DNA of 64,000 bases, from NCBI GenBank assembly GCA_011947345.1, contig JAAVTG010000382.1:1-64000 (forward strand), read 5' to 3'. This document shows positions 39,686 through 64,000 of this stretch, piece after piece; within the stretch, counting starts at the first letter, position 1, and the number at the start of each line of letters is the position of its first letter. The translations under genes were made by a program, and so were the position numbers. The stretch is from Phytophthora quininea. Its lineage: Eukaryota; Oomycota; Peronosporomycetes; Peronosporales; Peronosporaceae. The notes under the pieces were generated by a model. The model had not been told where the DNA came from. It was given only the letters and a program-made list of their open reading frames with translations, and searched no databases.

Positions 39686-39857
39686 GTCGTAGTTTACCAG
39701 TCGTTTTCGCCGTCGTGTGACGCCGCGTCCAGCTCGGATTCGGTGCGGCCACGTGTGCTGCTCCGTCAGCACAAGCAGCCCGACACGGCTGTGGACGCTA
39801 ACCGCCCAAAACAGCGAGCGTGTGCCAGCAAGAGCGGCAAAGAGAATGCGCCGTCCG

Positions 39858-39868
39858 GGAATCGAACC
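39858..39868 (-). promoter_or_regulatory. Internal B box of tRNA copy 1
   Basis: GGTTCGATTCC on the coding strand, a perfect match to the Pol III B-box consensus GGTTCGANTCC that binds TFIIIC. It is kept in all 38 copies, including the ones with single-base changes nearby. Confidence 0.85.
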
Positions 39869-39899
39869 CGGGGCATCTCGTTGGCAACGAGATATTTTA

Positions 39900-39910
39900 C
39901 CACTAAACCA
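39900..39910 (-). promoter_or_regulatory. Internal A box of tRNA copy 1
   Basis: TGGTTTAGTGG on the coding strand, matching the A-box consensus TRGCNNARYNGG over the D arm. It is present in every copy. Confidence 0.8.
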
Positions 39911-40218
39911 ACGGCGCTTCGTGGACGCCACAACACCCACACGCCCTCCAAAACGCGCTGACGCACGCCGCACCACCACGCGCGATGCACGGCCCGCACG
40001 CTCCAACCATGCGCTACACCACGGCGCCCGACGCGACTGCCAGCACCGCTCACACGACTCTGTGCGGCGACGGTCGCTGACGGTCGGTACGGACGCCGGC
40101 GAGTCGGGCTGAAATGTCTCAATGGGCTGGCCAGCGCGAGCGGTGCGGCCTGTGGTAGGCGGACCGGGCGGCACGTGAAGGTCTCCGTCGTGTGCGAGCG
40201 GCTGGTGCGGCTGCCGGC

Positions 40219-40328
40219 TACTGACATTACTGACATTACTGACATTATTGACATTACCGACATTACTGACATTACTGACATTACCGACATTACTGACATT
40301 ACTGACACTACCGACACTACCGACATTG
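40219..40328. repeat. 9-base-period short tandem repeat in the array spacer (first unit)
   Basis: Repeats of ATTACTGAC with C/T and A/T changes (ATTACCGAC, ATTATTGAC), about twelve copies here. The block starts with three ACTGACATT units then TTGAC, and closes with CACTACCGACATTGCC. Every array unit has one such block; copy number differs between units and explains most of the length variation (shortest near 42175-42231, 45370-45423 and 52500-52556; longest near 56360-56500). Confidence 0.9.
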
Positions 40329-40499
40329 CCTACAGCGTGTCGTAGTTTACCAGTCGTTTTCGCCGTCGTGTGACGCCGCGTCCAGCTCGGATTCGGTGCG
40401 GCCACGTGTGCTGCTCCGTCAGCACAAGCAGCCCGACACGGCTGTGGACGCTAACCGCCCAAAACAGCGAGCGTGTGCCAGCAAGAGCGGCAAAGAGAA

Positions 40500-40570
40500 T
40501 GCGCCGTCCGGGAATCGAACCCGGGGCATCTCGTTGGCAACGAGATATTTTACCACTAAACCAACGGCGC
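40500..40570 (-). tRNA. tRNA-Gly(GCC), array copy 2
   Basis: Full-length form, same body as copy 1; three Ts follow the 3' end. Confidence 0.97.
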
Positions 40571-41152
40571 TTCGTGGACGCCACAACACCCACACGCCCT
40601 CCAAAACGCGCTGACGCACGCCGCACCACCACGCGCGATGCACGGCCCGCACGCTCCAACCATGCGCTACACCACGGCGCCCGACGCGACTGCCAGCACC
40701 GCTCACACGACTCTGTGCGGCGACGGTCGCTGACGGTCGGTACGGACGCCGGCGAGTCGGGCTGAAATGTCTCAATGGGCTGGCCAGCGCGAGCGGTGCG
40801 GCCTGTGGTAGGCGGACCGGGCGGCACGTGAAGGTCTCCGTCGTGTGCGAGCGGCTGGTGCGGCTGCCGGCTACTGACATTACTGACATTACTGACATTA
40901 TTGACATTACCGACATTACTGACATTACTGACATTACCGACATTACCGACATTACTGACATTATTGACACTACCGACATTGCCTACAGCGTGTCGTAGTT
41001 TACCAGTCGTTTTCGCCGTCGTGTGACGCCGCGTCCAGCTCGGATTCGGTGCGGCCACGTGTGCTGCTCCGTCAGCACAAGCAGCCCGACACGGCTGTGG
41101 ACGCTAACCGCCCAAAACAGCGAGCGTGTGCCAGCAAGAGCGGCAAAGAGAA

Positions 41153-41223
41153 TGCGCCGTCCGGGAATCGAACCCGGGGCATCTCGTTGGCAACGAGATA
41201 TTTTACCACTAAACCAACGGCGC
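41153..41223 (-). tRNA. tRNA-Gly(GCC), array copy 3
   Basis: Full-length form. The unit has a three-base deletion in the spacer near 41325. Confidence 0.97.
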
Positions 41224-41803
41224 TTCGTGGACGCCACAACACCCACACGCCCTCCAAAACGCGCTGACGCACGCCGCACCACCACGCGCGATGCACGGCC
41301 CGCACGCTCCAACCATGCGCTACACCGGCGCCCGACGCGACTGCCAGCACCGCTCACACGACTCTGTGCGGCGACGGTCGCTGACGGTCGGTACGGACGC
41401 CGGCGAGTCGGGCTGAAATGTCTCAATGGGCTGGCCAGCGCGAGCGGTGCGGCCTGTGGTAGGCGGACCGGGCGGCACGTGAAGGTCTCCGTCGTGTGCG
41501 AGCGGCTGGTGCGGCTGCCGGCTACTGACATTACTGACATTACTGACATTATTGACATTACCGACATTACTGACATTACCGACATTACCGACATTACCGA
41601 CATTACTGACACTACCGACACTACCGACATTGCCTACAGCGTGTCGTAGTTTACCAGTCGTTTTCGCCGTCGTGTGACGCCGCGTCCAGCTCGGATTCGG
41701 TGCGGCCACGTGCGCTGCTCCGTCAGCACAAGCAGCCCGACACGGCTGTGGGCGCTAACCGCCCAAAACAGCGAGCGTGTGCCAGCAAGAGCGGCAAAGA
41801 GAA

Positions 41804-41874
41804 TGCGCCGTCCGGGAATCGAACCCGGGGCATCTCGTTGGCAACGAGATATTTTACCACTAAACCAACGGCGC
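41804..41874 (-). tRNA. tRNA-Gly(GCC), array copy 4
   Basis: Full-length form. The unit shares the CACGTGCGCTG change with copy 5 only. Confidence 0.97.
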
Positions 41875-42400
41875 TTCGTGGACGCCACAACACCCACACG
41901 CCCTCCAAAACGCGCTGACGCACGCCGCACCACCACGCGCGATGCACGGCCCGCACGCTCCAACCATGCGCTACACCACGGCGCCCGACGCGACTGCCAG
42001 CACCGCTCACACGACTCTGTGCGGCGACGGTCGCTGACGGTCGGTACGGACGCCGGCGAGTCGGGCTGGAATGTCTCAATGGGCTGGCCAGCGCGAGCGG
42101 TGGCCTGTGGTAGGCGGACCGGGCGGCACGTGAAGGTCTCCGTCGTGTGCGAGCGGCTGGTGCGGCTGCCGGCTACTGACATTACTGACATTACTGACAT
42201 TATTGACACTACCGACACTACCGACATTGCCAACAGCGTGTCGTCGTTTACCAGTCGTTTTCGCCGTCGTGTGACGCCGCGTCCAGCTCGGATTCGGTGC
42301 GGCCACGTGCGCTGCTCCGTCAGCACAAGCAGCCCGACACGGCTGTGGGCGCTAACCGCCCAAAACAGCGAGCGTGTGCCAGCAAGAGCGGCAAAGAGAA

Positions 42401-42471
42401 TGCGCCGTCCGGGAATCGAACCCGGGGCATCTCGTTGGCAACGAGATATTTTACCACTAAACCAACGGCGC
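42401..42471 (-). tRNA. tRNA-Gly(GCC), array copy 5
   Basis: Full-length form. The preceding spacer repeat is short (period to copy 4 is 597 bases). Confidence 0.97.
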
Positions 42472-43047
42472 TTCGTGGACGCCACAACACCCACACGCCC
42501 TCCAAAACGCGCTGACGCACGCCGCACCACCACGCGCGATGCACGGCCCGCACGCTCCAACCATGCGCTACACCACGGCGCCCGACGCGACTGCCAGCAC
42601 CGCTCACACGACTCTGTGCGGCGACGGTCGCTGACGGTCGGTACGGACGCCGGCGAGTCGGGCTGGAATGTCTCAATGGGCTGGCCAGCGCGAGCGGTGC
42701 GGCCTGTGGTAGGCGGACCGGGCGGCACGTGAAGGTCTCCGTCGTGTGCGAGCGGCTGGTGCGGCTGCCGGCTACTGACATTACTGACATTACTGACATT
42801 ATTGACATTACCGACATTACTGACATTACTGACATTACCGACATTACTGACATTACTGACACTACCGACGACATTGCCTACAGCGTGTCGTAGTTTACCA
42901 GTCGTTTTCGCCGTCGTGTGACGCCGCGTCCAGCTCGGATTCGGTGCGGCCACGTGTGCTGCTCCGTCAGCACAAGCAGCCCGACACGGCTGTGGGCGCT
43001 AACCGCCCAAAACAGCGAGCGTGTGCCAGCAAGAGCGGCAAAGAGAA

Positions 43048-43117
43048 TGCGCCGTCCGGGAATCGAACCCGGGCATCTCGTTGGCAACGAGATATTTTAC
43101 CACTAAACCAACGGCGC
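43048..43117 (-). tRNA. tRNA-Gly(GCC), array copy 6, one C short
   Basis: 70 bases: one C is missing from the TGCCCC stretch, giving a 3-base variable loop if the T stem is kept. The flank also lost bases (ACACCCTCAAAA). Confidence 0.85.
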
Positions 43118-43696
43118 TTCGTGGACGCCACAACACCCACACCCTCAAAACGCGCTGACGCACGCCGCACCACCACGCGCGATGCACGGCCCGCACGCTC
43201 CAACCATGCGCTACACCACGGCGCCCGACGCGACTGCCAGCACCGCTCACACGACTCTGTGCGGCGACGGTCGCTGACGGTCGGTACGGACGCCGGCGAG
43301 TCGGGCTGGAATGTCTCAATGGGCTGGCCAGCGCGAGCGGTGCGGCCTGTGGTAGGCGGACCGGGCGGCACGTGAAGGTCTCCGTCGTGTGCGAGCGGCT
43401 GGTGCGGCTGCCGGCTACTGACATTACTGACATTACTGACATTATTGACATTACCGACATTACTGACATTACTGACATTACCGACATTACCGACATTACT
43501 GACACTACCGACACTACCGACATTGCCTACAGCGTGTCGTAGTTTACCAGTCGTTTTCGCCGTCGTGTGACGCCGCGTCCAGCTCGGATTCGGTGCGGCC
43601 ACGTGTGCTGCTCCGTCAGCACAAGCAGCCCGACACGGCTGTGGACGCTAACCGCCCAAAACAGCGAGCGTGTGCCAGCAAGAGCGGCAAAGAGAA

Positions 43697-43766
43697 TGCG
43701 CCGTCCGGGAATCGAACCCGGGCATCTCGTTGGCAACGAGATATTTTACCACTAAACCAACGGCGC
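43697..43766 (-). tRNA. tRNA-Gly(GCC), array copy 7, one C short
   Basis: Same single-base loss in the variable loop as copy 6, with a normal flank. Confidence 0.85.
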
Positions 43767-44341
43767 TTCGTGGACGCCACAACACCCACACGCCCTCCAA
43801 AACGCGCTGACGCACGCCGCACCACCACGCGCGATGCACGGCCCGCACGCTCCAACCATGCGCTACACCACGGCGCCCGACGCGACTGCCAGCACCGCTC
43901 ACACGACTCTGTGCGGCGACGGTCGCTGACGGTCGGTACGGACGCCGGCGAGTCGGGCTGGAATGTCTCAATGGGCTGGCCAGCGCGAGCGGTGCGGCCT
44001 GTGGTAGGCGGACCGGGCGGCACGTGAAGGTCTCCGTCGTGTGCGAGCGGCTGGTGCGGCTGCCGGCTACTGACATTACTGACATTACTGACATTATTGA
44101 CATTACCGACATTACTGACATTACTGACATTACCGACATTACCGACATTACTGAGACACTACCGACATTGCCTACAGCGTGTCGTAGTTTACCAGTCGTT
44201 TTCGCCGTCGTGTGACGCCGCGTCCAGCTCGGATTCGGTGCGGCCACGTGTGCTGCTCCGTCAGCACAAGCAGCCCGACACGGCTGTGGGCGCTAACCGC
44301 CCAAAACAGCGAGCGTGTGCCAGCAAGAGCGGCAAAGAGAA

Positions 44342-44412
44342 TGCGCCGTCCGGGAATCGAACCCGGGGCATCTCGTTGGCAACGAGATATTTTACCACTA
44401 AACCAACGGCGC
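44342..44412 (-). tRNA. tRNA-Gly(GCC), array copy 8
   Basis: Full-length form. Confidence 0.97.
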
Positions 44413-44996
44413 TTCGTGGACGCCACAACACCCACACGCCCTCCAAAACGCGCTGACGCACGCCGCACCACCACGCGCGATGCACGGCCCGCACGCTCCA
44501 ACCATGCGCTACACCACGGCGCCCGACGCGACTGCCAGCACCGCTCACACGACTCTGTGCGGCGACGGTCGCTGACGGTCGGTACGGACGCCGGCGAGTC
44601 GGGCTGGAATGTCTCAATGGGCTGGCCAGCGCGAGCGGTGCGGCCTGTGGTAGGCGGACCGGGCGGCACGTGAAGGTCTCCGTCGTGTGCGAGCGGCTGG
44701 TGCGGCTGCCGGCTACTGACATTACTGACATTACTGACATTATTGACATTACTGACATTACTGACATTACTGACATTACTGACATTACCGACATTACATT
44801 GACACTACCGACACTACCGACATTGCCTACAGCGTGTCGTAGTTTACCAGTCGTTTTCGCCGTCGTGTGACGCCGCGTCCAGCTCGGATTCGGTGCGGCC
44901 ACGTGTGCTGCTCCGTCAGCACAAGCAGCCCGACACGGCTGTGGACGCTAACCGCCCAAAACAGCGAGCGTGTGCCAGCAAGAGCGGCAAAGAGAA

Positions 44997-45067
44997 TGCG
45001 CCGTCCGGGAATCGAACCCGGGGCATCTCGTTGGCAACGAGATATTTTACCACTAAACCAACGGCGC
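44997..45067 (-). tRNA. tRNA-Gly(GCC), array copy 9
   Basis: Full-length form. Confidence 0.97.
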
Positions 45068-45596
45068 TTCGTGGACGCCACAACACCCACACGCCCTCCA
45101 AAACGCGCTGACGCACGCCGCACCACCACGCGCGATGCACGGCCCGCACGCTCCAACCATGCGCTACACCACGGCGCCCGACGCGACTGCCAGCACCGCT
45201 CACACGACTCTGTGCGGCGACGGTCGCTGACGGTCGGTACGGACGCCGGCGAGTCGGGCTGGAATGTCTCAATGGGCTGGCCAGCGCGAGCGGTGCGGCC
45301 TGTGGTAGGCGGACCGGGCGGCACGTGAAGGTCTCCGTCGTGTGCGAGCGGCTGGTGCGGCTGCCGGCTACTGACATTACTGACATTACTGACATTATTG
45401 ACACTACCGACACTACCGACATTGCCTACAGCGTGTCGTAGTTTACCAGTCGTTTTCGCCGTCGTGTGACGCCGCGTCCAGCTCGGATTCGGTGCGGCCA
45501 CGTGTGCTGCTCCGTCAGCACAAGCAGCCCGACACGGCTGTGGACGCTAACCGCCCAAAACAGCGAGCGTGTGCCAGCAAGAGCGGCAAAAGAGAA

Positions 45597-45667
45597 TGCG
45601 CCGTCCGGGAATCGAACCCGGGGCATCTCGTTGGCAACGAGATATTTTACCACTAAACCAACGGCGC
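45597..45667 (-). tRNA. tRNA-Gly(GCC), array copy 10
   Basis: Full-length body; the first copy with four Ts (coding strand) just after the 3' end, a complete Pol III stop. The preceding spacer repeat is short. Confidence 0.97.
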
Positions 45668-46246
45668 TTCGTGGACGCCACAACACCCACACGCCCTCCA
45701 AAACGCGCTGACGCACGCCGCACCACCACGCGCGATGCACGGCCCGCACGCTCCAACCATGCGCTACACCACGGCGCCCGACGCGACTGCCAGCACCGCT
45801 CACACGACTCTGTGCGGCGACGGTCGCTGACGGTCGGTACGGACGCCGGCGAGTCGGGCTGGAATGTCTCAATGGGCTGGCCAGCGCGAGCGGTGCGGCC
45901 TGTGGTAGGCGGACCGGGCGGCACGTGAAGGTCTCCGTCGTGTGCGAGCGGCTGGTGCGGCTGCCGGCTACTGACATTACTGACATTACTGACATTATTG
46001 ACATTACCGACATTACTGACATTACTGACATTACCGACATTACCGACATTACTGACATTGACACTACCGACATTGCCTACAGCGTGTCGTAGTTTACCAG
46101 TCGTTTTCGCCGTCGTGTGACGCCGCGTCCAGCTCGGATTCGGTGCGGCCACGTGTGCTGCTCCGTCAGCACAAGCAGCCCGACACGGCTGTGGACGCTA
46201 ACCGCCCAAAACAGCGAGCGTGTGCCAGCAAGAGCGGCAAAGAGAA

Positions 46247-46317
46247 TGCGCCGTCCGGGAATCGAACCCGGGGCATCTCGTTGGCAACGAGATATTTTAC
46301 CACTAAACCAACGGCGC
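46247..46317 (-). tRNA. tRNA-Gly(GCC), array copy 11
   Basis: Full-length form. Confidence 0.97.
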
Positions 46318-46899
46318 TTCGTGGACGCCACAACACCCACACGCCCTCCAAAACGCGCTGACGCACGCCGCACCACCACGCGCGATGCACGGCCCGCACG
46401 CTCCAACCATGCGCTACACCACGGCGCCCGACGCGACTGCCAGCACCGCTCACACGACTCTGTGCGGCGACGGTCGCTGACGGTCGGTACGGACGCCGGC
46501 GAGTCGGGCTGGAATGTCTCAATGGGCTGGCCAGCGCGAGCGGTGCGGCCTGTGGTAGGCGGACCGGGCGGCACGTGAAGGTCTCCGTCGTGTGCGAGCG
46601 GCTGGTGCGGCTGCCGGCTACTGACATTACTGACATTACTGACATTATTGACATTACCGACATTACTGACATTACTGACATTACCGACATTACTGACATT
46701 ACTGACACTACCGACACTACCGACATTGCCTACAGCGTGTCGTAGTTTACCAGTCGTTTTCGCCGTCGTGTGACGCCGCGTCCAGCTCGGATTCGGTGCG
46801 GCCACGTGTGCTGCTCCGTCAGCACAAGCAGCCCGACACGGCTGTGGACGCTAACCGCCCAAAACAGCGAGCGTGTGCCAGCAAGAGCGGCAAAGAGAA

Positions 46900-46970
46900 T
46901 GCGCCGTCCGGGAATCGAACCCGGGGCATCTCGTTGGCAACGAGATATTTTACCACTAAACCAACGGCGC
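46900..46970 (-). tRNA. tRNA-Gly(GCC), array copy 12
   Basis: Full-length form. Confidence 0.97.
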
Positions 46971-47552
46971 TTCGTGGACGCCACAACACCCACACGCCCT
47001 CCAAAACGCGCTGACGCACGCCGCACCACCACGCGCGATGCACGGCCCGCACGCTCCAACCATGCGCTACACCACGGCGCCCGACGCGACTGCCAGCACC
47101 GCTCACACGACTCTGTGCGGCGACGGTCGCTGACGGTCGGTACGGACGCCGGCGAGTCGGGCTGGAATGTCTCAATGGGCTGGCCAGCGCGAGCGGTGCG
47201 GCCTGTGGTAGGCGGACCGGGCGGCACGTGAAGGTCTCCGTCGTGTGCGAGCGGCTGGTGCGGCTGCCGGCTACTGACATTACTGACATTACTGACATTA
47301 TTGACATTACTGACATTACTGACATTACTGACATTACCGACATTACTGACATTACTGACACTACCGACACTACCGACATTGCCTACAGCGTGTCGTAGTT
47401 TACCAGTCGTTTTCGCCGTCGTGTGACGCCGCGTCCAGCTCGGATTCGGTGCGGCCACGTGTGCTGCTCCGTCAGCACAAGCAGCCCGACACGGCTGTGG
47501 ACGCTAACCGCCCAAAACAGCGAGCGTGTGCCAGCAAGAGCGGCAAAGAGAA

Positions 47553-47623
47553 TGCGCCGTCCGGGAATCGAACCCGGGGCATCTCGTTGGCAACGAGATA
47601 TTTTACCACTAAACCAACGGCGC
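47553..47623 (-). tRNA. tRNA-Gly(GCC), array copy 13
   Basis: Full-length form. Confidence 0.97.
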
Positions 47624-48196
47624 TTCGTGGACGCCACAACACCCACACGCCCTCCAAAACGCGCTGACGCACGCCGCACCACCACGCGCGATGCACGGCC
47701 CGCACGCTCCAACCATGCGCTACACCACGGCGCCCGACGCGACTGCCAGCACCGCTCACACGACTCTGTGCGGCGACGGTCGCTGACGGTCGGTACGGAC
47801 GCCGGCGAGTCGGGCTGGAATGTCTCAATGGGCTGGCCAGCGCGAGCGGTGCGGCCTGTGGTAGGCGGACCGGGCGGCACGTGAAGGTCTCCGTCGTGTG
47901 CGAGCGGCTGGTGCGGCTGCCGGCTACTGACATTACTGACATTACTGACATTATTGACATTACCGACATTACTGACATTACTGACATTACCGACATTACT
48001 GACATTACTGACACTACCGACATTGCCTACAGCGTGTCGTAGTTTACCAGTCGTTTTCGCCGTCGTGTGACGCCGCGTCCAGCTCGGATTCGGTGCGGCC
48101 ACGTGTGCTGCTCCGTCAGCACAAGCAGCCCGACACGGCTGTGGGCGCTAACCGCCCAAAACAGCGAGCGTGTGCCAGCAAGAGCGGCAAAGAGAA

Positions 48197-48267
48197 TGCG
48201 CCGTCCGGGAATCGAACCCGGGGCATCTCGTTGGCAACGAGATATTTTACCACTAAACCAACGGCGC
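48197..48267 (-). tRNA. tRNA-Gly(GCC), array copy 14
   Basis: Full-length form; first of eight consecutive units (14-21) sharing G at the GTGGRCG marker site. Confidence 0.97.
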
Positions 48268-48849
48268 TTCGTGGACGCCACAACACCCACACGCCCTCCA
48301 AAACGCGCTGACGCACGCCGCACCACCACGCGCGATGCACGGCCCGCACGCTCCAACCATGCGCTACACCACGGCGCCCGACGCGACTGCCAGCACCGCT
48401 CACACGACTCTGTGCGGCGACGGTCGCTGACGGTCGGTACGGACGCCGGCGAGTCGGGCTGGAATGTCTCAATGGGCTGGCCAGCGCGAGCGGTGCGGCC
48501 TGTGGTAGGCGGACCGGGCGGCACGTGAAGGTCTCCGTCGTGTGCGAGCGGCTGGTGCGGCTGCCGGCTACTGACATTACTGACATTACTGACATTATTG
48601 ACATTACCGACATTACTGACATTACTGACATTACCGACATTACTGACATTACTGACACTACCGACACTACCGACATTGCCTACAGCGTGTCGTAGTTTAC
48701 CAGTCGTTTTCGCCGTCGTGTGACGCCGCGTCCAGCTCGGATTCGGTGCGGCCACGTGTGCTGCTCCGTCAGCACAAGCAGCCCGACACGGCTGTGGGCG
48801 CTAACCGCCCAAAACAGCGAGCGTGTGCCAGCAAGAGCGGCAAAGAGAA

Positions 48850-48920
48850 TGCGCCGTCCGGGAATCGAACCCGGGGCATCTCGTTGGCAACGAGATATTT
48901 TACCACTAAACCAACGGCGC
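48850..48920 (-). tRNA. tRNA-Gly(GCC), array copy 15
   Basis: Full-length form; the unit looks identical to copies 16-18. Confidence 0.97.
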
Positions 48921-49502
48921 TTCGTGGACGCCACAACACCCACACGCCCTCCAAAACGCGCTGACGCACGCCGCACCACCACGCGCGATGCACGGCCCGC
49001 ACGCTCCAACCATGCGCTACACCACGGCGCCCGACGCGACTGCCAGCACCGCTCACACGACTCTGTGCGGCGACGGTCGCTGACGGTCGGTACGGACGCC
49101 GGCGAGTCGGGCTGGAATGTCTCAATGGGCTGGCCAGCGCGAGCGGTGCGGCCTGTGGTAGGCGGACCGGGCGGCACGTGAAGGTCTCCGTCGTGTGCGA
49201 GCGGCTGGTGCGGCTGCCGGCTACTGACATTACTGACATTACTGACATTATTGACATTACCGACATTACTGACATTACTGACATTACCGACATTACTGAC
49301 ATTACTGACACTACCGACACTACCGACATTGCCTACAGCGTGTCGTAGTTTACCAGTCGTTTTCGCCGTCGTGTGACGCCGCGTCCAGCTCGGATTCGGT
49401 GCGGCCACGTGTGCTGCTCCGTCAGCACAAGCAGCCCGACACGGCTGTGGGCGCTAACCGCCCAAAACAGCGAGCGTGTGCCAGCAAGAGCGGCAAAGAG
49501 AA

Positions 49503-49573
49503 TGCGCCGTCCGGGAATCGAACCCGGGGCATCTCGTTGGCAACGAGATATTTTACCACTAAACCAACGGCGC
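49503..49573 (-). tRNA. tRNA-Gly(GCC), array copy 16
   Basis: Full-length form. Confidence 0.97.
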
Positions 49574-50155
49574 TTCGTGGACGCCACAACACCCACACGC
49601 CCTCCAAAACGCGCTGACGCACGCCGCACCACCACGCGCGATGCACGGCCCGCACGCTCCAACCATGCGCTACACCACGGCGCCCGACGCGACTGCCAGC
49701 ACCGCTCACACGACTCTGTGCGGCGACGGTCGCTGACGGTCGGTACGGACGCCGGCGAGTCGGGCTGGAATGTCTCAATGGGCTGGCCAGCGCGAGCGGT
49801 GCGGCCTGTGGTAGGCGGACCGGGCGGCACGTGAAGGTCTCCGTCGTGTGCGAGCGGCTGGTGCGGCTGCCGGCTACTGACATTACTGACATTACTGACA
49901 TTATTGACATTACCGACATTACTGACATTACTGACATTACCGACATTACTGACATTACTGACACTACCGACACTACCGACATTGCCTACAGCGTGTCGTA
50001 GTTTACCAGTCGTTTTCGCCGTCGTGTGACGCCGCGTCCAGCTCGGATTCGGTGCGGCCACGTGTGCTGCTCCGTCAGCACAAGCAGCCCGACACGGCTG
50101 TGGGCGCTAACCGCCCAAAACAGCGAGCGTGTGCCAGCAAGAGCGGCAAAGAGAA

Positions 50156-50226
50156 TGCGCCGTCCGGGAATCGAACCCGGGGCATCTCGTTGGCAACGAG
50201 ATATTTTACCACTAAACCAACGGCGC
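50156..50226 (-). tRNA. tRNA-Gly(GCC), array copy 17
   Basis: Full-length form. Confidence 0.97.
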
Positions 50227-50808
50227 TTCGTGGACGCCACAACACCCACACGCCCTCCAAAACGCGCTGACGCACGCCGCACCACCACGCGCGATGCACG
50301 GCCCGCACGCTCCAACCATGCGCTACACCACGGCGCCCGACGCGACTGCCAGCACCGCTCACACGACTCTGTGCGGCGACGGTCGCTGACGGTCGGTACG
50401 GACGCCGGCGAGTCGGGCTGGAATGTCTCAATGGGCTGGCCAGCGCGAGCGGTGCGGCCTGTGGTAGGCGGACCGGGCGGCACGTGAAGGTCTCCGTCGT
50501 GTGCGAGCGGCTGGTGCGGCTGCCGGCTACTGACATTACTGACATTACTGACATTATTGACATTACCGACATTACTGACATTACTGACATTACCGACATT
50601 ACTGACATTACTGACACTACCGACACTACCGACATTGCCTACAGCGTGTCGTAGTTTACCAGTCGTTTTCGCCGTCGTGTGACGCCGCGTCCAGCTCGGA
50701 TTCGGTGCGGCCACGTGTGCTGCTCCGTCAGCACAAGCAGCCCGACACGGCTGTGGGCGCTAACCGCCCAAAACAGCGAGCGTGTGCCAGCAAGAGCGGC
50801 AAAGAGAA

Positions 50809-50879
50809 TGCGCCGTCCGGGAATCGAACCCGGGGCATCTCGTTGGCAACGAGATATTTTACCACTAAACCAACGGCGC
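50809..50879 (-). tRNA. tRNA-Gly(GCC), array copy 18
   Basis: Full-length form. Confidence 0.97.
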
Positions 50880-51463
50880 TTCGTGGACGCCACAACACCC
50901 ACACGCCCTCCAAAACGCGCTGACGCACGCCGCACCACCACGCGCGATGCACGGCCCGCACGCTCCAACCATGCGCTACACCACGGCGCCCGACGCGACT
51001 GCCAGCACCGCTCACACGACTCTGTGCGGCGACGGTCGCTGACGGTCGGTACGGACGCCGGCGAGTCGGGCTGGAATGTCTCAATGGGCTGGCCAGCGCG
51101 AGCGGTGCGGCCTGTGGTAGGCGGACCGGGCGGCACGTGAAGGTCTCCGTCGTGTGCGAGCGGCTGGTGCGGCTGCCGGCTACTGACATTACTGACATTA
51201 CTGACATTATTGACATTACCGACATTACTGACATTACTGACATTACCGACATTACTGACACATTACTGACATTACCGACACTACCGACATTGCCTACAGC
51301 GTGTCGTAGTTTACCAGTCGTTTTCGCCGTCGTGTGACGCCGCGTCCAGCTCGGATTCGGTGCGGCCACGTGTGCTGCTCCGTCAGCACAAGCAGCCCGA
51401 CACGGCTGTGGGCGCTAACCGCCCAAAACAGCGAGCGTGTGCCAGCAAGAGCGGCAAAGAGAA

Positions 51464-52798: not shown

Positions 52799-53380
52799 TT
52801 CGTGGACGCCACAACACCCACACGCCCTCCAAAACGCGCTGACGCACGCCGCACCACCACGCGCGATGCACGGCCCGCACGCTCCAACCATGCGCTACAC
52901 CACGGCGCCCGACGCGACTGCCAGCACCGCTCACACGACTCTGTGCGGCGACGGTCGCTGACGGTCGGTACGGACGCCGGCGAGTCGGGCTGGAATGTCT
53001 CAATGGGCTGGCCAGCGCGAGCGGTGCGGCCTGTGGTAGGCGGACCGGGCGGCACGTGAAGGTCTCCGTCGTGTGCGAGCGGCTGGTGCGGCTGCCGGCT
53101 ACTGACATTACTGACATTACTGACATTATTGACATTACCGACATTACTGACATTACTGACATTACCGACATTACTGACATTACTGACACTACCGACACTA
53201 CCGACATTGCCTACAGCGTGTCGTAGTTTACCAGTCGTTTTCGCCGTCGTGTGACGCCGCGTCCAGCTCGGATTCGGTGCGGCCACGTGTGCTGCTCCGT
53301 CAGCACAAGCAGCCCGACACGGCTGTGGACGCTAACCGCCCAAAACAGCGAGCGTGTGCCAGCAAGAGCGGCAAAGAGAA

Positions 53381-53451
53381 TGCGCCGTCCGGGAATCGAA
53401 CCCGGGGCATCTCGTTGGCAACGAGATATTTTACCACTAAACCAACGGCGC
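53381..53451 (-). tRNA. tRNA-Gly(GCC), array copy 22
   Basis: Full-length form. Confidence 0.97.
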
Positions 53452-54033
53452 TTCGTGGACGCCACAACACCCACACGCCCTCCAAAACGCGCTGACGCAC
53501 GCCGCACCACCACGCGCGATGCACGGCCCGCACGCTCCAACCATGCGCTACACCACGGCGCCCGACGCGACTGCCAGCACCGCTCACACGACTCTGTGCG
53601 GCGACGGTCGCTGACGGTCGGTACGGACGCCGGCGAGTCGGGCTGGAATGTCTCAATGGGCTGGCCAGCGCGAGCGGTGCGGCCTGTGGTAGGCGGACCG
53701 GGCGGCACGTGAAGGTCTCCGTCGTGTGCGAGCGGCTGGTGCGGCTGCCGGCTACTGACATTACTGACATTACTGACATTATTGACATTACCGACATTAC
53801 TGACATTACTGACATTACCGACATTACTGACATTACTGACACTACCGACACTACCGACATTGCCTACAGCGTGTCGTAGTTTACCAGTCGTTTTCGCCGT
53901 CGTGTGACGCCGCGTCCAGCTCGGATTCGGTGCGGCCACGTGTGCTGCTCCGTCAGCACAAGCAGCCCGACACGGCTGTGGGCGCTAACCGCCCAAAACA
54001 GCGAGCGTGTGCCAGCAAGAGCGGCAAAGAGAA

Positions 54034-54103
54034 TGCGCCGTCCGGGAATCGAACCCGGGCATCTCGTTGGCAACGAGATATTTTACCACTAAACCAACGG
54101 CGC
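54034..54103 (-). tRNA. tRNA-Gly(GCC), array copy 23, one C short
   Basis: 70 bases; variable-loop C missing as in copies 6 and 7. Confidence 0.85.
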
Positions 54104-54685
54104 TTCGTGGACGCCACAACACCCACACGCCCTCCAAAACGCGCTGACGCACGCCGCACCACCACGCGCGATGCACGGCCCGCACGCTCCAACCATGCGC
54201 TACACCACGGCGCCCGACGCGACTGCCAGCACCGCTCACACGACTCTGTGCGGCGACGGTCGCTGACGGTCGGTACGGACGCCGGCGAGTCGGGCTGGAA
54301 TGTCTCAATGGGCTGGCCAGCGCGAGCGGTGCGGCCTGTGGTAGGCGGACCGGGCGGCACGTGAAGGTCTCCGTCGTGTGCGAGCGGCTGGTGCGGCTGC
54401 CGGCTACTGACATTACTGACATTACTGACATTATTGACATTACTGACATTACTGACATTACTGACATTACTGACATTACTGACATTACTGACATTATTGA
54501 CACTACCGACATTGCCTACAGCGTGTCGTAGTTTACCAGTCGTTTTCGCCGTCGTGTGACGCCGCGTCCAGCTCGGATTCGGTGCGGCCACGTGTGCTGC
54601 TCCGTCAGCACAAGCAGCCCGACACGGCTGTGGACGCTAACCGCCCAAAACAGCGAGCGTGTGCCAGCAAGAGCGGCAAAGAGAA

Positions 54686-54756
54686 TGCGCCGTCCGGGAA
54701 TCGAACCCGGGGCATCTCGTTGGCAACGAGATATTTTACCACTAAACCAACGGCGC
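54686..54756 (-). tRNA. tRNA-Gly(GCC), array copy 24
   Basis: Full-length form. Confidence 0.97.
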
Positions 54757-55338
54757 TTCGTGGACGCCACAACACCCACACGCCCTCCAAAACGCGCTGA
54801 CGCACGCCGCACCACCACGCGCGATGCACGGCCCGCACGCTCCAACCATGCGCTACACCACGGCGCCCGACGCGACTGCCAGCACCGCTCACACGACTCT
54901 GTGCGGCGACGGTCGCTGACGGTCGGTACGGACGCCGGCGAGTCGGGCTGGAATGTCTCAATGGGCTGGCCAGCGCGAGCGGTGCGGCCTGTGGTAGGCG
55001 GACCGGGCGGCACGTGAAGGTCTCCGTCGTGTGCGAGCGGCTGGTGCGGCTGCCGGCTACTGACATTACTGACATTACTGACATTATTGACATTACCGAC
55101 ATTACTGACATTACTGACATTACCGACATTACTGACATTACTGACACTACCGACACTACCGACATTGCCTACAGCGTGTCGTAGTTTACCAGTCGTTTTC
55201 GCCGTCGTGTGACGCCGCGTCCAGCTCGGATTCGGTGCGGCCACGTGTGCTGCTCCGTCAGCACAAGCAGCCCGACACGGCTGTGGACGCTAACCGCCCA
55301 AAACAGCGAGCGTGTGCCAGCAAGAGCGGCAAAGAGAA

Positions 55339-55408
55339 TGCGCCGTCCGGGAATCGAACCCGGGCATCTCGTTGGCAACGAGATATTTTACCACTAAACC
55401 AACGGCGC
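55339..55408 (-). tRNA. tRNA-Gly(GCC), array copy 25, one C short
   Basis: 70 bases; variable-loop C missing as in copies 6, 7 and 23. Confidence 0.85.
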
Positions 55409-55991
55409 TTCGTGGACGCCACAACACCCACACGCCCTCCAAAACGCGCTGACGCACGCCGCACCACCACGCGCGATGCACGGCCCGCACGCTCCAACCA
55501 TGCGCTACACCACGGCGCCCGACGCGACTGCCAGCACCGCTCACACGACTCTGTGCGGCGACGGTCGCTGACGGTCGGTACGGACGCCGGCGAGTCGGGC
55601 TGGAATGTCTCAATGGGCTGGCCAGCGCGAGCGGTGCGGCCTGTGGTAGGCGGACCGGGCGGCACGTGAAGGTCTCCGTCGTGTGCGAGCGGCTGGTGCG
55701 GCTGCCGGCTACTGACATTACTGACATTACTGACATTATTGACATTACCGACATTACTGACATTACTGACATTACCGACATTACCGACATTACTGACATT
55801 ATTGACACTACCGACATTGCCTACAGCGTGTCGTAGTTTACCAGTCGTTTTCGCCGTCGTGTGACGCCGCGTCCAGCTCGGATTCGGTGCGGCCACGTGT
55901 GCTGCTCCGTCAGCACAAGCAGCCCGACACGGCTGTGGGCGCTAACCGCCCAAAACAGCGAGCGTGTGCCAGCAAGAGCGGCAAAAGAGAA

Positions 55992-56061
55992 TGCGCCGTC
56001 CGGGAATCGAACCGGGGCATCTCGTTGGCAACGAGATATTTTACCACTAAACCAACGGCGC
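55992..56061 (-). tRNA. tRNA-Gly(GCC), array copy 26, T-stem variant
   Basis: 70 bases: one G of the T-stem 5' strand is missing (CCCCGGTTCG), leaving a stem with a mismatch or only four pairs. The B box is still intact. Four Ts follow the 3' end. Confidence 0.8.
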
Positions 56062-56670
56062 TTCGTGGACGCCACAACACCCACACGCCCTCCAAAACGC
56101 GCTGACGCACGCCGCACCACCACGCGCGATGCACGGCCCGCACGCTCCAACCATGCGCTACACCACGGCGCCCGACGCGACTGCCAGCACCGCTCACACG
56201 ACTCTGTGCGGCGACGGTCGCTGACGGTCGGTACGGACGCCGGCGAGTCGGGCTGGAATGTCTCAATGGGCTGGCCAGCGCGAGCGGTGCGGCCTGTGGT
56301 AGGCGGACCGGGCGGCACGTGAAGGTCTCCGTCGTGTGCGAGCGGCTGGTGCGGCTGCCGGCTACTGACATTACTGACATTACTGACATTATTGACATTA
56401 CCGACATTACTGACATTACTGACATTACTGACATTACCGACATTACTGACATTACTGACATTACCGACATTACTGACATTATTGACACTACCGACATTGC
56501 CTACAGCGTGTCGTAGTTTACCAGTCGTTTTCGCCGTCGTGTGACGCCGCGTCCAGCTCGGATTCGGTGCGGCCACGTGTGCTGCTCCGTCAGCACAAGC
56601 AGCCCGACACGGCTGTGGGCGCTAACCGCCCAAAACAGCGAGCGTGTGCCAGCAAGAGCGGCAAAGAGAA

Positions 56671-56740
56671 TGCGCCGTCCGGGAATCGAACCGGGGCATC
56701 TCGTTGGCAACGAGATATTTTACCACTAAACCAACGGCGC
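56671..56740 (-). tRNA. tRNA-Gly(GCC), array copy 27, T-stem variant
   Basis: Same T-stem loss as copy 26, with three Ts after the end. The spacer repeat before it is the longest seen (period 680). Confidence 0.8.
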
Positions 56741-57342
56741 TTCGTGGACGCCACAACACCCACACGCCCTCCAAAACGCGCTGACGCACGCCGCACCACC
56801 ACGCGCGATGCACGGCCCGCACGCTCCAACCATGCGCTACACCACGGCGCCCGACGCGACTGCCAGCACCGCTCACACGACTCTGTGCGGCGACGGTCGC
56901 TGACGGTCGGTACGGACGCCGGCGAGTCGGGCTGGAATGTCTCAATGGGCTGGCCAGCGCGAGCGGTGCGGCCTGTGGTAGGCGGACCGGGCGGCACGTG
57001 AAGGTCTCCGTCGTGTGCGAGCGGCTGGTGCGGCTGCCGGCTACTGACATTACTGACATTACTGACATTATTGACATTACCGACATTACTGACATTACTG
57101 ACATTACTTACCGACATTACTGACATTACTGACATTACCGACACTGACATTATTGACACTACCGACATTGCCTACAGCGTGTCGTAGTTTACCAGTCGTT
57201 TTCGCCGTCGTGTGACGCCGCGTCCAGCTCGGATTCGGTGCGGCCACGTGTGCTGCTCCGTCAGCACAAGCAGCCCGACACGGCTGTGGGCGCTAACCGC
57301 CCAAAACAGCGAGCGTGTGCCAGCAAGAGCGGCAAAAGAGAA

Positions 57343-57412
57343 TGCGCCGTCCGGGAATCGAACCGGGGCATCTCGTTGGCAACGAGATATTTTACCACTA
57401 AACCAACGGCGC
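57343..57412 (-). tRNA. tRNA-Gly(GCC), array copy 28, T-stem variant
   Basis: Same T-stem loss as copy 26; four Ts follow. Confidence 0.8.
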
Positions 57413-57994
57413 TTCGTGGACGCCACAACACCCACACGCCCTCCAAAACGCGCTGACGCACGCCGCACCACCACGCGCGATGCACGGCCCGCACGCTCCA
57501 ACCATGCGCTACACCACGGCGCCCGACGCGACTGCCAGCACCGCTCACACGACTCTGTGCGGCGACGGTCGCTGACGGTCGGTACGGACGCCGGCGAGTC
57601 GGGCTGGAATGTCTCAATGGGCTGGCCAGCGCGAGCGGTGCGGCCTGTGGTAGGCGGACCGGGCGGCACGTGAAGGTCTCCGTCGTGTGCGAGCGGCTGG
57701 TGCGGCTGCCGGCTACTGACATTACTGACATTACTGACATTATTGACATTACCGACATTACTGACATTACTGACATTACTGACATTACCGACATTACTGA
57801 CATTACCGACACTACCGACATTGCCTACAGCGTGTCGTAGTTTACCAGTCGTTTTCGCCGTCGTGTGACGCCGCGTCCAGCTCGGATTCGGTGCGGCCAC
57901 GTGTGCTGCTCCGTCAGCACAAGCAGCCCGACACGGCTGTGGACGCTAACCGCCCAAAACAGCGAGCGTGTGCCAGCAAGAGCGGCAAAGAGAA

Positions 57995-58064
57995 TGCGCC
58001 GTCCGGGAATCGAACCGGGGCATCTCGTTGGCAACGAGATATTTTACCACTAAACCAACGGCGC
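57995..58064 (-). tRNA. tRNA-Gly(GCC), array copy 29, T-stem variant
   Basis: Same T-stem loss as copy 26; three Ts follow. Confidence 0.8.
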
Positions 58065-58646
58065 TTCGTGGACGCCACAACACCCACACGCCCTCCAAAA
58101 CGCGCTGACGCACGCCGCACCACCACGCGCGATGCACGGCCCGCACGCTCCAACCATGCGCTACACCACGGCGCCCGACGCGACTGCCAGCACCGCTCAC
58201 ACGACTCTGTGCGGCGACGGTCGCTGACGGTCGGTACGGACGCCGGCGAGTCGGGCTGGAATGTCTCAATGGGCTGGCCAGCGCGAGCGGTGCGGCCTGT
58301 GGTAGGCGGACCGGGCGGCACGTGAAGGTCTCCGTCGTGTGCGAGCGGCTGGTGCGGCTGCCGGCTACTGACATTACTGACATTACTGACATTATTGACA
58401 TTACCGACATTACTGACATTACTGACATTACCGACATTACCGACATTACTGACATTACCGACACTACCGACATTGCCTACAGCGTGTCGTAGTTTACCAG
58501 TCGTTTTCGCCGTCGTGTGACGCCGCGTCCAGCTCGGATTCGGTGCGGCCACGTGTGCTGCTCCGTCAGCACAAGCAGCCCGACACGGCTGTGGGCGCTA
58601 ACCGCCCAAAACAGCGAGCGTGTGCCAGCAAGAGCGGCAAAGAGAA

Positions 58647-58717
58647 TGCGCCGTCCGGGAATCGAACCCGGGGCATCTCGTTGGCAACGAGATATTTTAC
58701 CACTAAACCAACGGCGC
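58647..58717 (-). tRNA. tRNA-Gly(GCC), array copy 30
   Basis: Full-length form between T-stem variants. Confidence 0.97.
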
Positions 58718-59300
58718 TTCGTGGACGCCACAACACCCACACGCCCTCCAAAACGCGCTGACGCACGCCGCACCACCACGCGCGATGCACGGCCCGCACG
58801 CTCCAACCATGCGCTACACCACGGCGCCCGACGCGACTGCCAGCACCGCTCACACGACTCTGTGCGGCGACGGTCGCTGACGGTCGGTACGGACGCCGGC
58901 GAGTCGGGCTGGAATGTCTCAATGGGCTGGCCAGCGCGAGCGGTGCGGCCTGTGGTAGGCGGACCGGGCGGCACGTGAAGGTCTCCGTCGTGTGCGAGCG
59001 GCTGGTGCGGCTGCCGGCTACTGACATTACTGACATTACTGACATTATTGACATTACTGACATTACTGACATTACTGACATTACTGACATTACCGACATT
59101 ACTGACATTATTGACACTACCGACATTGCCTACAGCGTGTCGTAGTTTACCAGTCGTTTTCGCCGTCGTGTGACGCCGCGTCCAGCTCGGATTCGGTGCG
59201 GCCACGTGTGCTGCTCCGTCAGCACAAGCAGCCCGACACGGCTGTGGGCGCTAACCGCCCAAAACAGCGAGCGTGTGCCAGCAAGAGCGGCAAAAGAGAA

Positions 59301-59370
59301 TGCGCCGTCCGGGAATCGAACCGGGGCATCTCGTTGGCAACGAGATATTTTACCACTAAACCAACGGCGC
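59301..59370 (-). tRNA. tRNA-Gly(GCC), array copy 31, T-stem variant
   Basis: Same T-stem loss as copy 26; four Ts follow. Confidence 0.8.
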
Positions 59371-59958
59371 TTCGTGGACGCCACAACACCCACACGCCCT
59401 CCAAAACGCGCTGACGCACGCCGCACCACCACGCGCGATGCACGGCCCGCACGCTCCAACCATGCGCTACACCACGGCGCCCGACGCGACTGCCAGCACC
59501 GCTCACACGACTCTGTGCGGCGACGGTCGCTGACGGTCGGTACGGACGCCGGCGAGTCGGGCTGGAATGTCTCAATGGGCTGGCCAGCGCGAGCGGTGCG
59601 GCCTGTGGTAGGCGGACCGGGCGGCACGTGAAGGTCTCCGTCGTGTGCGAGCGGCTGGTGCGGCTGCCGGCTACTGACATTACTGACATTACTGACATTA
59701 TTGACATTACCGACATTACTGACATTACTGACATTACTGACATTGACATTACGACATTACTGACACTACCGACACTACCGACATTGCCTACAGCGTGTCG
59801 TAGTTTACCAGTCGTTTTCGCCGTCGTGTGACGCCGCGTCCAGCTCGGATTCGGTGCGGCCACGTGTGCTGCTCCGTCAGCACAAGCAGCCCGACACGGC
59901 TGTGGGCGCTAACCGCCCAAAACAGCGAGCGTGTGCCAGCAAGAGCGGCAAAAGAGAA

Positions 59959-60029
59959 TGCGCCGTCCGGGAATCGAACCCGGGGCATCTCGTTGGCAAC
60001 GAGATATTTTACCACTAAACCAACGGCGC
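59959..60029 (-). tRNA. tRNA-Gly(GCC), array copy 32
   Basis: Full-length body with four Ts after the 3' end. Confidence 0.97.
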
Positions 60030-60612
60030 TTCGTGGACGCCACAACACCCACACGCCCTCCAAAACGCGCTGACGCACGCCGCACCACCACGCGCGATGC
60101 ACGGCCCGCACGCTCCAACCATGCGCTACACCACGGCGCCCGACGCGACTGCCAGCACCGCTCACACGACTCTGTGCGGCGACGGTCGCTGACGGTCGGT
60201 ACGGACGCCGGCGAGTCGGGCTGGAATGTCTCAATGGGCTGGCCAGCGCGAGCGGTGCGGCCTGTGGTAGGCGGACCGGGCGGCACGTGAAGGTCTCCGT
60301 CGTGTGCGAGCGGCTGGTGCGGCTGCCGGCTACTGACATTACTGACATTACTGACATTATTGACATTACCGACATTACTGACATTACTGACATTACCGAC
60401 ATTACCGACATTACTGACACTACCGACACTACCGACATTGCCTACAGCGTGTCGTAGTTTACCAGTCGTTTTCGCCGTCGTGTGACGCCGCGTCCAGCTC
60501 GGATTCGGTGCGGCCACGTGTGCTGCTCCGTCAGCACAAGCAGCCCGACACGGCTGTGGGCGCTAACCGCCCAAAACAGCGAGCGTGTGCCAGCAAGAGC
60601 GGCAAAAGAGAA

Positions 60613-60682
60613 TGCGCCGTCCGGGAATCGAACCGGGGCATCTCGTTGGCAACGAGATATTTTACCACTAAACCAACGGCGC
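60613..60682 (-). tRNA. tRNA-Gly(GCC), array copy 33, T-stem variant
   Basis: Same T-stem loss as copy 26; four Ts follow. Confidence 0.8.
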
Positions 60683-61264
60683 TTCGTGGACGCCACAACA
60701 CCCACACGCCCTCCAAAACGCGCTGACGCACGCCGCACCACCACGCGCGATGCACGGCCCGCACGCTCCAACCATGCGCTACACCACGGCGCCCGACGCG
60801 ACTGCCAGCACCGCTCACACGACTCTGTGCGGCGACGGTCGCTGACGGTCGGTACGGACGCCGGCGAGTCGGGCTGGAATGTCTCAATGGGCTGGCCAGC
60901 GCGAGCGGTGCGGCCTGTGGTAGGCGGACCGGGCGGCACGTGAAGGTCTCCGTCGTGTGCGAGCGGCTGGTGCGGCTGCCGGCTACTGACATTACTGACA
61001 TTACTGACATTATTGACATTACTGACATTACTGACATTACTGACATTACCGACATTACCGACATTATTGACACTACCGACACTACCGACATTGCCTACAG
61101 CGTGTCGTAGTTTACCAGTCGTTTTCGCCGTCGTGTGACGCCGCGTCCAGCTCGGATTCGGTGCGGCCACGTGTGCTGCTCCGTCAGCACAAGCAGCCCG
61201 ACACGGCTGTGGACGCTAACCGCCCAAAACAGCGAGCGTGTGCCAGCAAGAGCGGCAAAGAGAA

Positions 61265-61335
61265 TGCGCCGTCCGGGAATCGAACCCGGGGCATCTCGTT
61301 GGCAACGAGATATTTTACCACTAAACCAACGGCGC
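61265..61335 (-). tRNA. tRNA-Gly(GCC), array copy 34
   Basis: Full-length form with three Ts. Confidence 0.97.
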
Positions 61336-61918
61336 TTCGTGGACGCCACAACACCCACACGCCCTCCAAAACGCGCTGACGCACGCCGCACCACCACGCG
61401 CGATGCACGGCCCGCACGCTCCAACCATGCGCTACACCACGGCGCCCGACGCGACTGCCAGCACCGCTCACACGACTCTGTGCGGCGACGGTCGCTGACG
61501 GTCGGTACGGACGCCGGCGAGTCGGGCTGGAATGTCTCAATGGGCTGGCCAGCGCGAGCGGTGCGGCCTGTGGTAGGCGGACCGGGCGGCACGTGAAGGT
61601 CTCCGTCGTGTGCGAGCGGCTGGTGCGGCTGCCGGCTACTGACATTACTGACATTACTGACATTATTGACATTACCGACATTACTGACATTACTGACATT
61701 ACCGACATTACTGACATTACTGACACTACCGACACTACCGACATTGCCTACAGCGTGTCGTAGTTTACCAGTCGTTTTCGCCGTCGTGTGACGCCGCGTC
61801 CAGCTCGGATTCGGTGCGGCCACGTGTGCTGCTCCGTCAGCACAAGCAGCCCGACACGGCTGTGGGCGCTAACCGCCCAAAACAGCGAGCGTGTGCCAGC
61901 AAGAGCGGCAAAAGAGAA

Positions 61919-61989
61919 TGCGCCGTCCGGGAATCGAACCCGGGGCATCTCGTTGGCAACGAGATATTTTACCACTAAACCAACGGCGC
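61919..61989 (-). tRNA. tRNA-Gly(GCC), array copy 35
   Basis: Full-length body with four Ts. Confidence 0.97.
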
Positions 61990-62572
61990 TTCGTGGACGC
62001 CACAACACCCACACGCCCTCCAAAACGCGCTGACGCACGCCGCACCACCACGCGCGATGCACGGCCCGCACGCTCCAACCATGCGCTACACCACGGCGCC
62101 CGACGCGACTGCCAGCACCGCTCACACGACTCTGTGCGGCGACGGTCGCTGACGGTCGGTACGGACGCCGGCGAGTCGGGCTGGAATGTCTCAATGGGCT
62201 GGCCAGCGCGAGCGGTGCGGCCTGTGGTAGGCGGACCGGGCGGCACGTGAAGGTCTCCGTCGTGTGCGAGCGGCTGGTGCGGCTGCCGGCTACTGACATT
62301 ACTGACATTACTGACATTATTGACATTACCGACATTACTGACATTACTGACATTACCGACATTACCGACATTACTGACATTATTGACACTACCGACATTG
62401 CCTACAGCGTGTCGTAGTTTACCAGTCGTTTTCGCCGTCGTGTGACGCCGCGTCCAGCTCGGATTCGGTGCGGCCACGTGTGCTGCTCCGTCAGCACAAG
62501 CAGCCCGACACGGCTGTGGGCGCTAACCGCCCAAAACAGCGAGCGTGTGCCAGCAAGAGCGGCAAAAGAGAA

Positions 62573-62643
62573 TGCGCCGTCCGGGAATCGAACCCGGGGC
62601 ATCTCGTTGGCAACGAGATATTTTACCACTAAACCAACGGCGC
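62573..62643 (-). tRNA. tRNA-Gly(GCC), array copy 36
   Basis: Full-length body with four Ts. Confidence 0.97.
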
Positions 62644-63226
62644 TTCGTGGACGCCACAACACCCACACGCCCTCCAAAACGCGCTGACGCACGCCGCACC
62701 ACCACGCGCGATGCACGGCCCGCACGCTCCAACCATGCGCTACACCACGGCGCCCGACGCGACTGCCAGCACCGCTCACACGACTCTGTGCGGCGACGGT
62801 CGCTGACGGTCGGTACGGACGCCGGCGAGTCGGGCTGGAATGTCTCAATGGGCTGGCCAGCGCGAGCGGTGCGGCCTGTGGTAGGCGGACCGGGCGGCAC
62901 GTGAAGGTCTCCGTCGTGTGCGAGCGGCTGGTGCGGCTGCCGGCTACTGACATTACTGACATTACTGACATTATTGACATTACCGACATTACTGACATTA
63001 CTGACATTACCGACATTACCGACATTACTGACATTATTGACACTACCGACATTGCCTACAGCGTGTCGTAGTTTACCAGTCGTTTTCGCCGTCGTGTGAC
63101 GCCGCGTCCAGCTCGGATTCGGTGCGGCCACGTGTGCTGCTCCGTCAGCACAAGCAGCCCGACACGGCTGTGGGCGCTAACCGCCCAAAACAGCGAGCGT
63201 GTGCCAGCAAGAGCGGCAAAAGAGAA

Positions 63227-63297
63227 TGCGCCGTCCGGGAATCGAACCCGGGGCATCTCGTTGGCAACGAGATATTTTACCACTAAACCAACGGCGC
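63227..63297 (-). tRNA. tRNA-Gly(GCC), array copy 37
   Basis: Full-length body with four Ts. Confidence 0.97.
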
Positions 63298-63880
63298 TTC
63301 GTGGACGCCACAACACCCACACGCCCTCCAAAACGCGCTGACGCACGCCGCACCACCACGCGCGATGCACGGCCCGCACGCTCCAACCATGCGCTACACC
63401 ACGGCGCCCGACGCGACTGCCAGCACCGCTCACACGACTCTGTGCGGCGACGGTCGCTGACGGTCGGTACGGACGCCGGCGAGTCGGGCTGGAATGTCTC
63501 AATGGGCTGGCCAGCGCGAGCGGTGCGGCCTGTGGTAGGCGGACCGGGCGGCACGTGAAGGTCTCCGTCGTGTGCGAGCGGCTGGTGCGGCTGCCGGCTA
63601 CTGACATTACTGACATTACTGACATTATTGACATTACCGACATTACTGACATTACTGACATTACTGACATTACCGACATTACTGACATTATTGACACTAC
63701 CGACATTGCCTACAGCGTGTCGTAGTTTACCAGTCGTTTTCGCCGTCGTGTGACGCCGCGTCCAGCTCGGATTCGGTGCGGCCACGTGTGCTGCTCCGTC
63801 AGCACAAGCAGCCCGACACGGCTGTGGACGCTAACCGCCCAAAACAGCGAGCGTGTGCCAGCAAGAGCGGCAAAAGAGAA

Positions 63881-63950
63881 TGCGCCGTCCGGGAATCGAA
63901 CCGGGGCATCTCGTTGGCAACGAGATATTTTACCACTAAACCAACGGCGC
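63881..63950 (-). tRNA. tRNA-Gly(GCC), array copy 38, T-stem variant
   Basis: Same T-stem loss as copy 26; four Ts follow. Last copy in view; the window ends inside the following spacer, so the array continues. Confidence 0.8.
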
Positions 63951-64000
63951 TTCGTGGACGCCACAACACCCACACGCCCTCCAAAACGCGCTGACGCACG

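Follow-up and report, generated by a model that had tools for sequence, protein, structure and literature searches.

Is a run of dozens of near-identical transfer RNA (tRNA) genes a set of working genes, a mobile repeat that carries a tRNA-like head or an artefact of assembly, and how do its members stay alike? The question is raised by a tandem array of tRNA-Gly(GCC) genes in the window analysed here, that is, the first 64,000 bases of contig C355 (91,552 bases), which belongs to an assembly of 87.2 Mb in 993 contigs. Our analysis suggests that it is very probably a monomeric tRNA array like those known from Peronosporaceae, in which true tRNA-Gly(GCC) genes, each with a spacer of its own, would have been amplified head to tail. 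It has the features of such arrays, namely a single isoacceptor, an invariant gene body, a single locus, length change and inversions, and a host of the same family.

The array and its repeat unit

Across the whole window ARAGORN called 38 tRNA genes, and each of them is a tRNA-Gly(GCC) gene on the minus strand between 39,847 and 63,950. The same 38 genes were matched by the Rfam tRNA family (RF00005) at 56.8–68.1 bits (gathering score, 29), with the canonical gene at 68.1 bits. The first-pass annotation had proposed at least 38 same-strand genes in units of about 653 bases, and both figures hold: the spacing is exactly 653 bp in 18 of the 43 intervals on C355, with a range of 597–679. It had also let the array run off the window. 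Six further genes do lie beyond on the same contig, bringing the total to 44, but the array does not continue indefinitely, as the last unit-like sequence lies near contig base 68,060, or 4.1 kb beyond the window, and the remainder of C355 is non-array sequence. The array is thereby bounded by non-array sequence on both sides. All 44 genes lie on one strand, head to tail, with one tRNA gene of the same isoacceptor per unit.

When the repeat region is left out, the 43 units of C355 measure 527–532 bp, while the repeat region itself ranges from 67 to 149 bp; the 9-bp repeat in this region, probably through slippage, thus accounts for nearly all of the differences in unit length. Within the part of the window that the array occupies, Tandem Repeats Finder reported 37 tracts of this repeat (TACTGACAT or TACCGACAT), each of 3.3–15.1 copies. 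In the stretch 39,600–41,260, a search for other RNAs in the spacer returned only three tRNA genes as significant. Three opposite-strand matches to Plastid-ycf2 in the same stretch scored 23.1 bits, below the gathering score of 65.7, and were taken as chance. An open reading frame (ORF) of 257 amino acids at 39,632–40,405 spans both the 9-bp repeat and a tRNA gene, and was taken as probably mechanical.

The gene itself varies far less. Of the 38 window copies 27 are identical, seven are without one G of a GGG run, which breaks one T-stem pair, and four are without one C of a CCCC run. Across the 118 arrayed genes of the assembly (described below) there are only three forms: the canonical one, in 100 copies, and two with a one-base deletion, in 12 and 6 copies. 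None of these 118 copies carries a substitution in the gene body. A usual stop for RNA polymerase III (Pol III) is TTTT, and such a run lies within 35 nt of the gene in 114 of 114 units.

A second version of the locus carries an inversion

We searched the whole assembly with the 44-nt 5′ part of the gene, allowing up to three mismatches, and obtained 119 matches (44 on C355, 65 on C661, 9 on C660 and 1 on C815), none of which carries a mismatch in the fetched DNA. All but one of these near-identical genes lie in arrays on C355, C660 and C661; the exception is a lone gene on C815. The left flanks of C355 and C660 are alike over 28,781 aligned sites in three long matches, with 2.0% substitutions, and the left array edge, given as 39,686 in the first-pass annotation, is common to both. 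C660 ends, and C661 begins, inside the array; the two carry the same unit family, and C661 matches 599 bp of the C355 right flank at 94.5%; of these 599 bp, the first 363 have a further match elsewhere on C355. From these likenesses, C660 and C661 together are probably the other haplotype, and C661 in its own right is likely to be part of it. When the nine C660 genes are set against the first nine of C661, the best register gives 98.4% identity with 15 mismatches and 71 gaps, and the other registers listed give 96.7–97.5%. The contigs may overlap by these nine genes, and the second version therefore has 65 to 74 or more genes. Thus, the copy number is 44 in one version and 65 or more in the other.

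The genes of the C661 array are arranged as 14 in one direction and 51 in the other. The junction between the two blocks holds, in reverse, a 0.7-kb segment found on C355 immediately to the right of the array (the contigs are about 79–80% alike there, with many gaps), and the far end of the inverted block joins the continuation of the C355 right flank. The breakpoints match one another reciprocally, with a discrepancy of no more than one or two bases, and enclose an inverted piece of 32,731 bp. A single in-place inversion of 51 units together with the flank segment would explain both junctions. A fold-back artefact was rejected as the cause in view of the reciprocity of the two breakpoints and the flank sequence present at each.

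Divergence between units and probable concerted evolution

To describe the variation, we aligned 114 complete units (43 from C355, 8 from C660, and 13 and 50 from the two blocks of C661), leaving out end units. Substitutions per site amount to 0.53% within C355 and to 0.4–1.7% when the parts of the second version are compared internally or with each other, and rise to 3.2–3.9% between the two versions, compared to 2.0% in the shared left flank. Neighbouring units are more alike than distant ones both on C355 and in the 50-unit block of C661, where none of 500 shuffles reached the observed likeness. By substitution, 77 of 564 spacer columns are variable. The alignment script flagged one of the 71 gene columns as substituted; as only three gene forms exist, we take this as the aligner's placement of a deletion. 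An invariant gene within a varying spacer, together with the likeness of neighbours, is what would be expected from concerted evolution with selection acting on the gene.

Relative to the non-inverted units, units 1–9 of the inverted block show 0.5–1.1% differences, many of its middle units up to 4.2%, and units 40–50 a mixed 0.7–2.9%. This pattern speaks neither clearly for nor clearly against homogenisation after the inversion. A more speculative suggestion, and one that we consider doubtful, is that the two alleles, which differ in length, unit family and orientation, have been homogenised separately because the 51-gene inversion hinders exchange between them, and have drifted apart faster (3.2–3.9%) than their flank (2.0%). 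If this were true, nature would have provided at this locus an experiment on the evolution of a tRNA array without exchange between homologues, and the dosage of tRNA-Gly genes would be unequal between haplotypes.

As a mechanism, unequal sister-chromatid exchange and gene conversion could add, remove and homogenise units, slippage could alter the 9-bp repeat, and selection for a working tRNA could hold the 71-nt body fixed. Pol III would transcribe the units, and the array may in this way supply most of the cell's tRNA-Gly(GCC).

Relation to published tRNA arrays

The first-pass annotation knew of no such array in oomycetes, and had accepted that published ones would remove the novelty. This claim fails, because tRNA arrays are in print for two species. 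Phytophthora infestans is reported to have thousands of its tRNA genes (7,519 in all) in tandem arrays, an example being 271 tRNA-Cys genes in a 513-nt unit (PMC9584435). Those arrays, like that of C355, have one gene head to tail in near-identical units of hundreds of bases; their variants occur in groups, and growth by unequal crossing-over has been proposed (PMC9584435). The array here differs from the tRNA-Cys example in its isoacceptor and in having 44 units rather than hundreds. In Peronospora effusa, 33–39 tRNA clusters per isolate are described as holding about 99.6% of its tRNA genes, including a tRNA-Arg cluster of 570 copies of a 717-bp unit (PMC11540230). As in the array here, the tRNA of a P. 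effusa cluster is invariant and the spacers vary (the rest of the unit is 95–99% identical), units fall into subgroups, and the arrays contain internal inversions and differ greatly in length between isolates (PMC11540230). The cluster tRNAs of that species share <70% identity with the tRNAs outside, whereas the array gene here is identical to the lone gene on C815; its authors call the units SINE-like, after short interspersed nuclear elements (SINEs), and report ORFs in the spacers (PMC11540230).

Outside the oomycetes, the first-pass annotation had pointed to Entamoeba for the short repeat in each spacer, and the likeness stands. Entamoeba arrays have units of one to five tRNA genes, some with one, as here, and 7–12 bp short tandem repeats of variable copy number between the genes, a range that includes the 9-bp repeat; concerted evolution has been proposed for them as well (PMC2652664). 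However, Entamoeba spacers are about 80% A+T (PMC2652664) and the array windows here are 61–63% G+C, and Entamoeba is a lineage unrelated to the host of this array. The human tRNA macrosatellite at 1q23.3 is likewise a G+C-rich tandem repeat with tRNA genes and alleles of 9–43 units, but its units are 7.3 kb long with five tRNA genes and CTCF sites (PMC4041453).

No Gly(GCC) array is named for an oomycete in the published text that we searched, a scope outside which figures and supplements lie. With the locus described here, the known tRNA arrays of Peronosporaceae gain a Gly(GCC) example for which both ends and two versions are available. It also bears on how such arrays should be named in this family, as true tRNA genes or as SINE-like repeats, and the evidence here favours true tRNA genes. 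Furthermore, the locus shows why the number of tRNA genes counted in a genome of this kind varies with the assembly used and with the inclusion of one haplotype or both.

Alternative explanations

Several observations weigh against a monomeric array of working tRNA genes. One-base deletions are present in 18 of the 118 copies, 12 of them breaking the T-stem pair, and these copies may be pseudogenes or consensus errors. On C355, 28 of 31 one-base indels fall in runs of three or more bases, and part of them, including the gene deletions, may therefore be consensus error. The TTTT run lies right behind the gene (5 nt) in only 31 of 114 units and at 30–35 nt in 83. The allelic status of C661, although likely, rests on the shared unit family and the 599 bp of right flank at 94.5%. 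Finally, codon use neither demands nor rules out such a dosage of tRNA-Gly.

The copy number itself could be adaptive, if the glycine codons GGC and GGU are in demand. These codons make up 173 of 254 glycine codons (GGC + GGT) in seven mechanical ORFs of the window, which is consistent with this explanation. On the other hand, the two versions differ in copies, the correlation between tRNA gene number and codon use in P. infestans is only modest (R = 0.41), and the most expanded tRNA families of that species serve rare codons (PMC9584435). We therefore consider selected dosage possible, if rather unlikely.

An architectural role, in which numerous Pol III/TFIIIC sites would make the array worth keeping as an insulator or tether of chromatin, appears improbable. 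The idea has been raised for oomycete arrays (PMC9584435), the human 1q23.3 macrosatellite has been read as a boundary element (PMC4041453), and here a gene-rich left flank adjoins the array. The two versions differ in both length and orientation, however, variation that any strict structural role would need to accommodate.

Each unit might instead be a tRNA-headed retroelement that multiplied as a repeat, the reading put forward for the P. effusa clusters (PMC11540230). The unit length and the tRNA-like head fit the cited definition of a SINE (200–700 bp), and the array length has changed quickly between versions. In contrast, a 41-nt spacer word, searched with up to three mismatches, occurs 118 times in the assembly and all 118 occurrences lie on C355, C660 and C661, which from their shared flanks appear to be one locus; dispersed copies, as a SINE would leave, were not found among them. 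The lone C815 gene has an identical 71-nt body and different flanks, and the P. effusa authors themselves call their elements region-confined and probably immobile (PMC11540230). A SINE-like origin is therefore very unlikely. Of the selfish amplification offered by the first-pass annotation, a mobile element is disfavoured by this confinement of the spacer words to the arrays, while passive unequal exchange is part of the mechanism that we prefer.

Finally, the idea that an assembler multiplied or folded back a few real units is hardly credible: the contig break between C660 and C661 falls within the array and many one-base indels lie in homopolymer runs, yet C355 spans the entire array with non-array sequence on either side, units differ in a spatially ordered way, two unit families 3.2–3.9% apart were assembled separately, the inversion with its two reciprocal breakpoints and flank sequence is unlike a simple fold-back, and representative copy numbers in P. 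infestans were confirmed by read depth (PMC9584435).

Flanking sequence and other tRNA genes in the assembly

The features of the window are collected in Table 1. The anoctamin family protein of the left flank has 53 relatives, and all of the organism-named members are oomycetes, in agreement with the host that the first-pass annotation had assumed. The closest are from Phytophthora kernoviae (86%) and from P. lilii and P. ramorum (85%), followed by downy mildews and Pythium relatives. Based on the relatives of this one protein, the host is placed in Peronosporaceae, probably in Phytophthora.

Table 1. Features of the window, with positions on its forward strand
Feature	Position	Strand	Evidence
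Anoctamin family gene (PF04547), left flank	33549..36149	+	Pfam
Calponin-homology (CH) domain gene, left flank; nearest Pfam-named protein gene to the array	36252..38114	+	Pfam; CH-gene sequence also precedes the array on C660
tRNA-Gly(GCC) tandem array, part within the window, 38 genes; reaches about contig base 68,060, 44 genes in total	39686..64000	-	ARAGORN, Rfam, Tandem Repeats Finder
First tRNA-Gly(GCC) gene of the array, canonical 71-nt form	39847..39917	-	ARAGORN; Rfam RF00005, 68.1 bits; 27 of 38 window copies identical
9-bp short tandem repeat in the first spacer (TACTGACAT, 12.1 copies)	40219..40327		Tandem Repeats Finder
38th and last tRNA-Gly(GCC) gene of the window, 70-nt form without one G	63881..63950	-	ARAGORN; Rfam, 56.8 bits

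The first-pass annotation had listed a subtelomeric element among the possible roles. On the left this finds no support, as about 266.6 kb of C660 precede the array; on the right, where only 23.5 kb follow on C355, it may hold. No telomere-like TTTAGGG run was found within the final 3 kb of either C355 or C661.

The left flanks of C355 and C660 also differ by large insertions. About 7 kb of the window (21,220–28,393) has little match to C660, which carries 0.9 kb instead, and is likely to be a version-specific insertion. Near 36,290, at the start of the CH-domain gene, C660 is longer than C355 by about 2.9 kb. Between 20 and 30 kb of the window, the G+C content drops to 49%.

The array gene has a further lone relative, on C8 (L015 2379–2449), which differs from it at 5 of 71 positions, all of them G to A or C to T. 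Its anticodon is changed to ACT and ARAGORN calls it Ser; it may be a decaying copy. A tRNA-Arg(TCG) gene adjoins the lone gene on both contigs, at 1.9 kb on C815 (L014 2700–4620) compared to 0.34 kb on C8. The ends of the additional sequence on C815 resemble each other in reverse orientation and, judged by eye, give it the look of a DNA transposon.

Other arrays were seen in 10 kb samples, after an Rfam tRNA search of the assembly in which 63 of 4,332 first-look candidates were scored. They include an Arg(ACG)-Gln(TTG)-Gln(CTG) array on C86, Thr(TGT) on C136 and C551, Lys(TTT) on C473 and C432, and Thr(CGT)-Trp(CCA)-Ser(GCT) on C62, a trimer that is also reported for P. infestans (PMC9584435). 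In the Lys(TTT) array on C473 (L027 4157–6796) the genes change strand, which perhaps reflects another inversion inside an array. L031 and contig C389 hold tightly packed, mixed tRNA genes of mitochondrial appearance, with tRNA matches that recur about 36.6 kb on, as if an organelle genome had been assembled more than once round.

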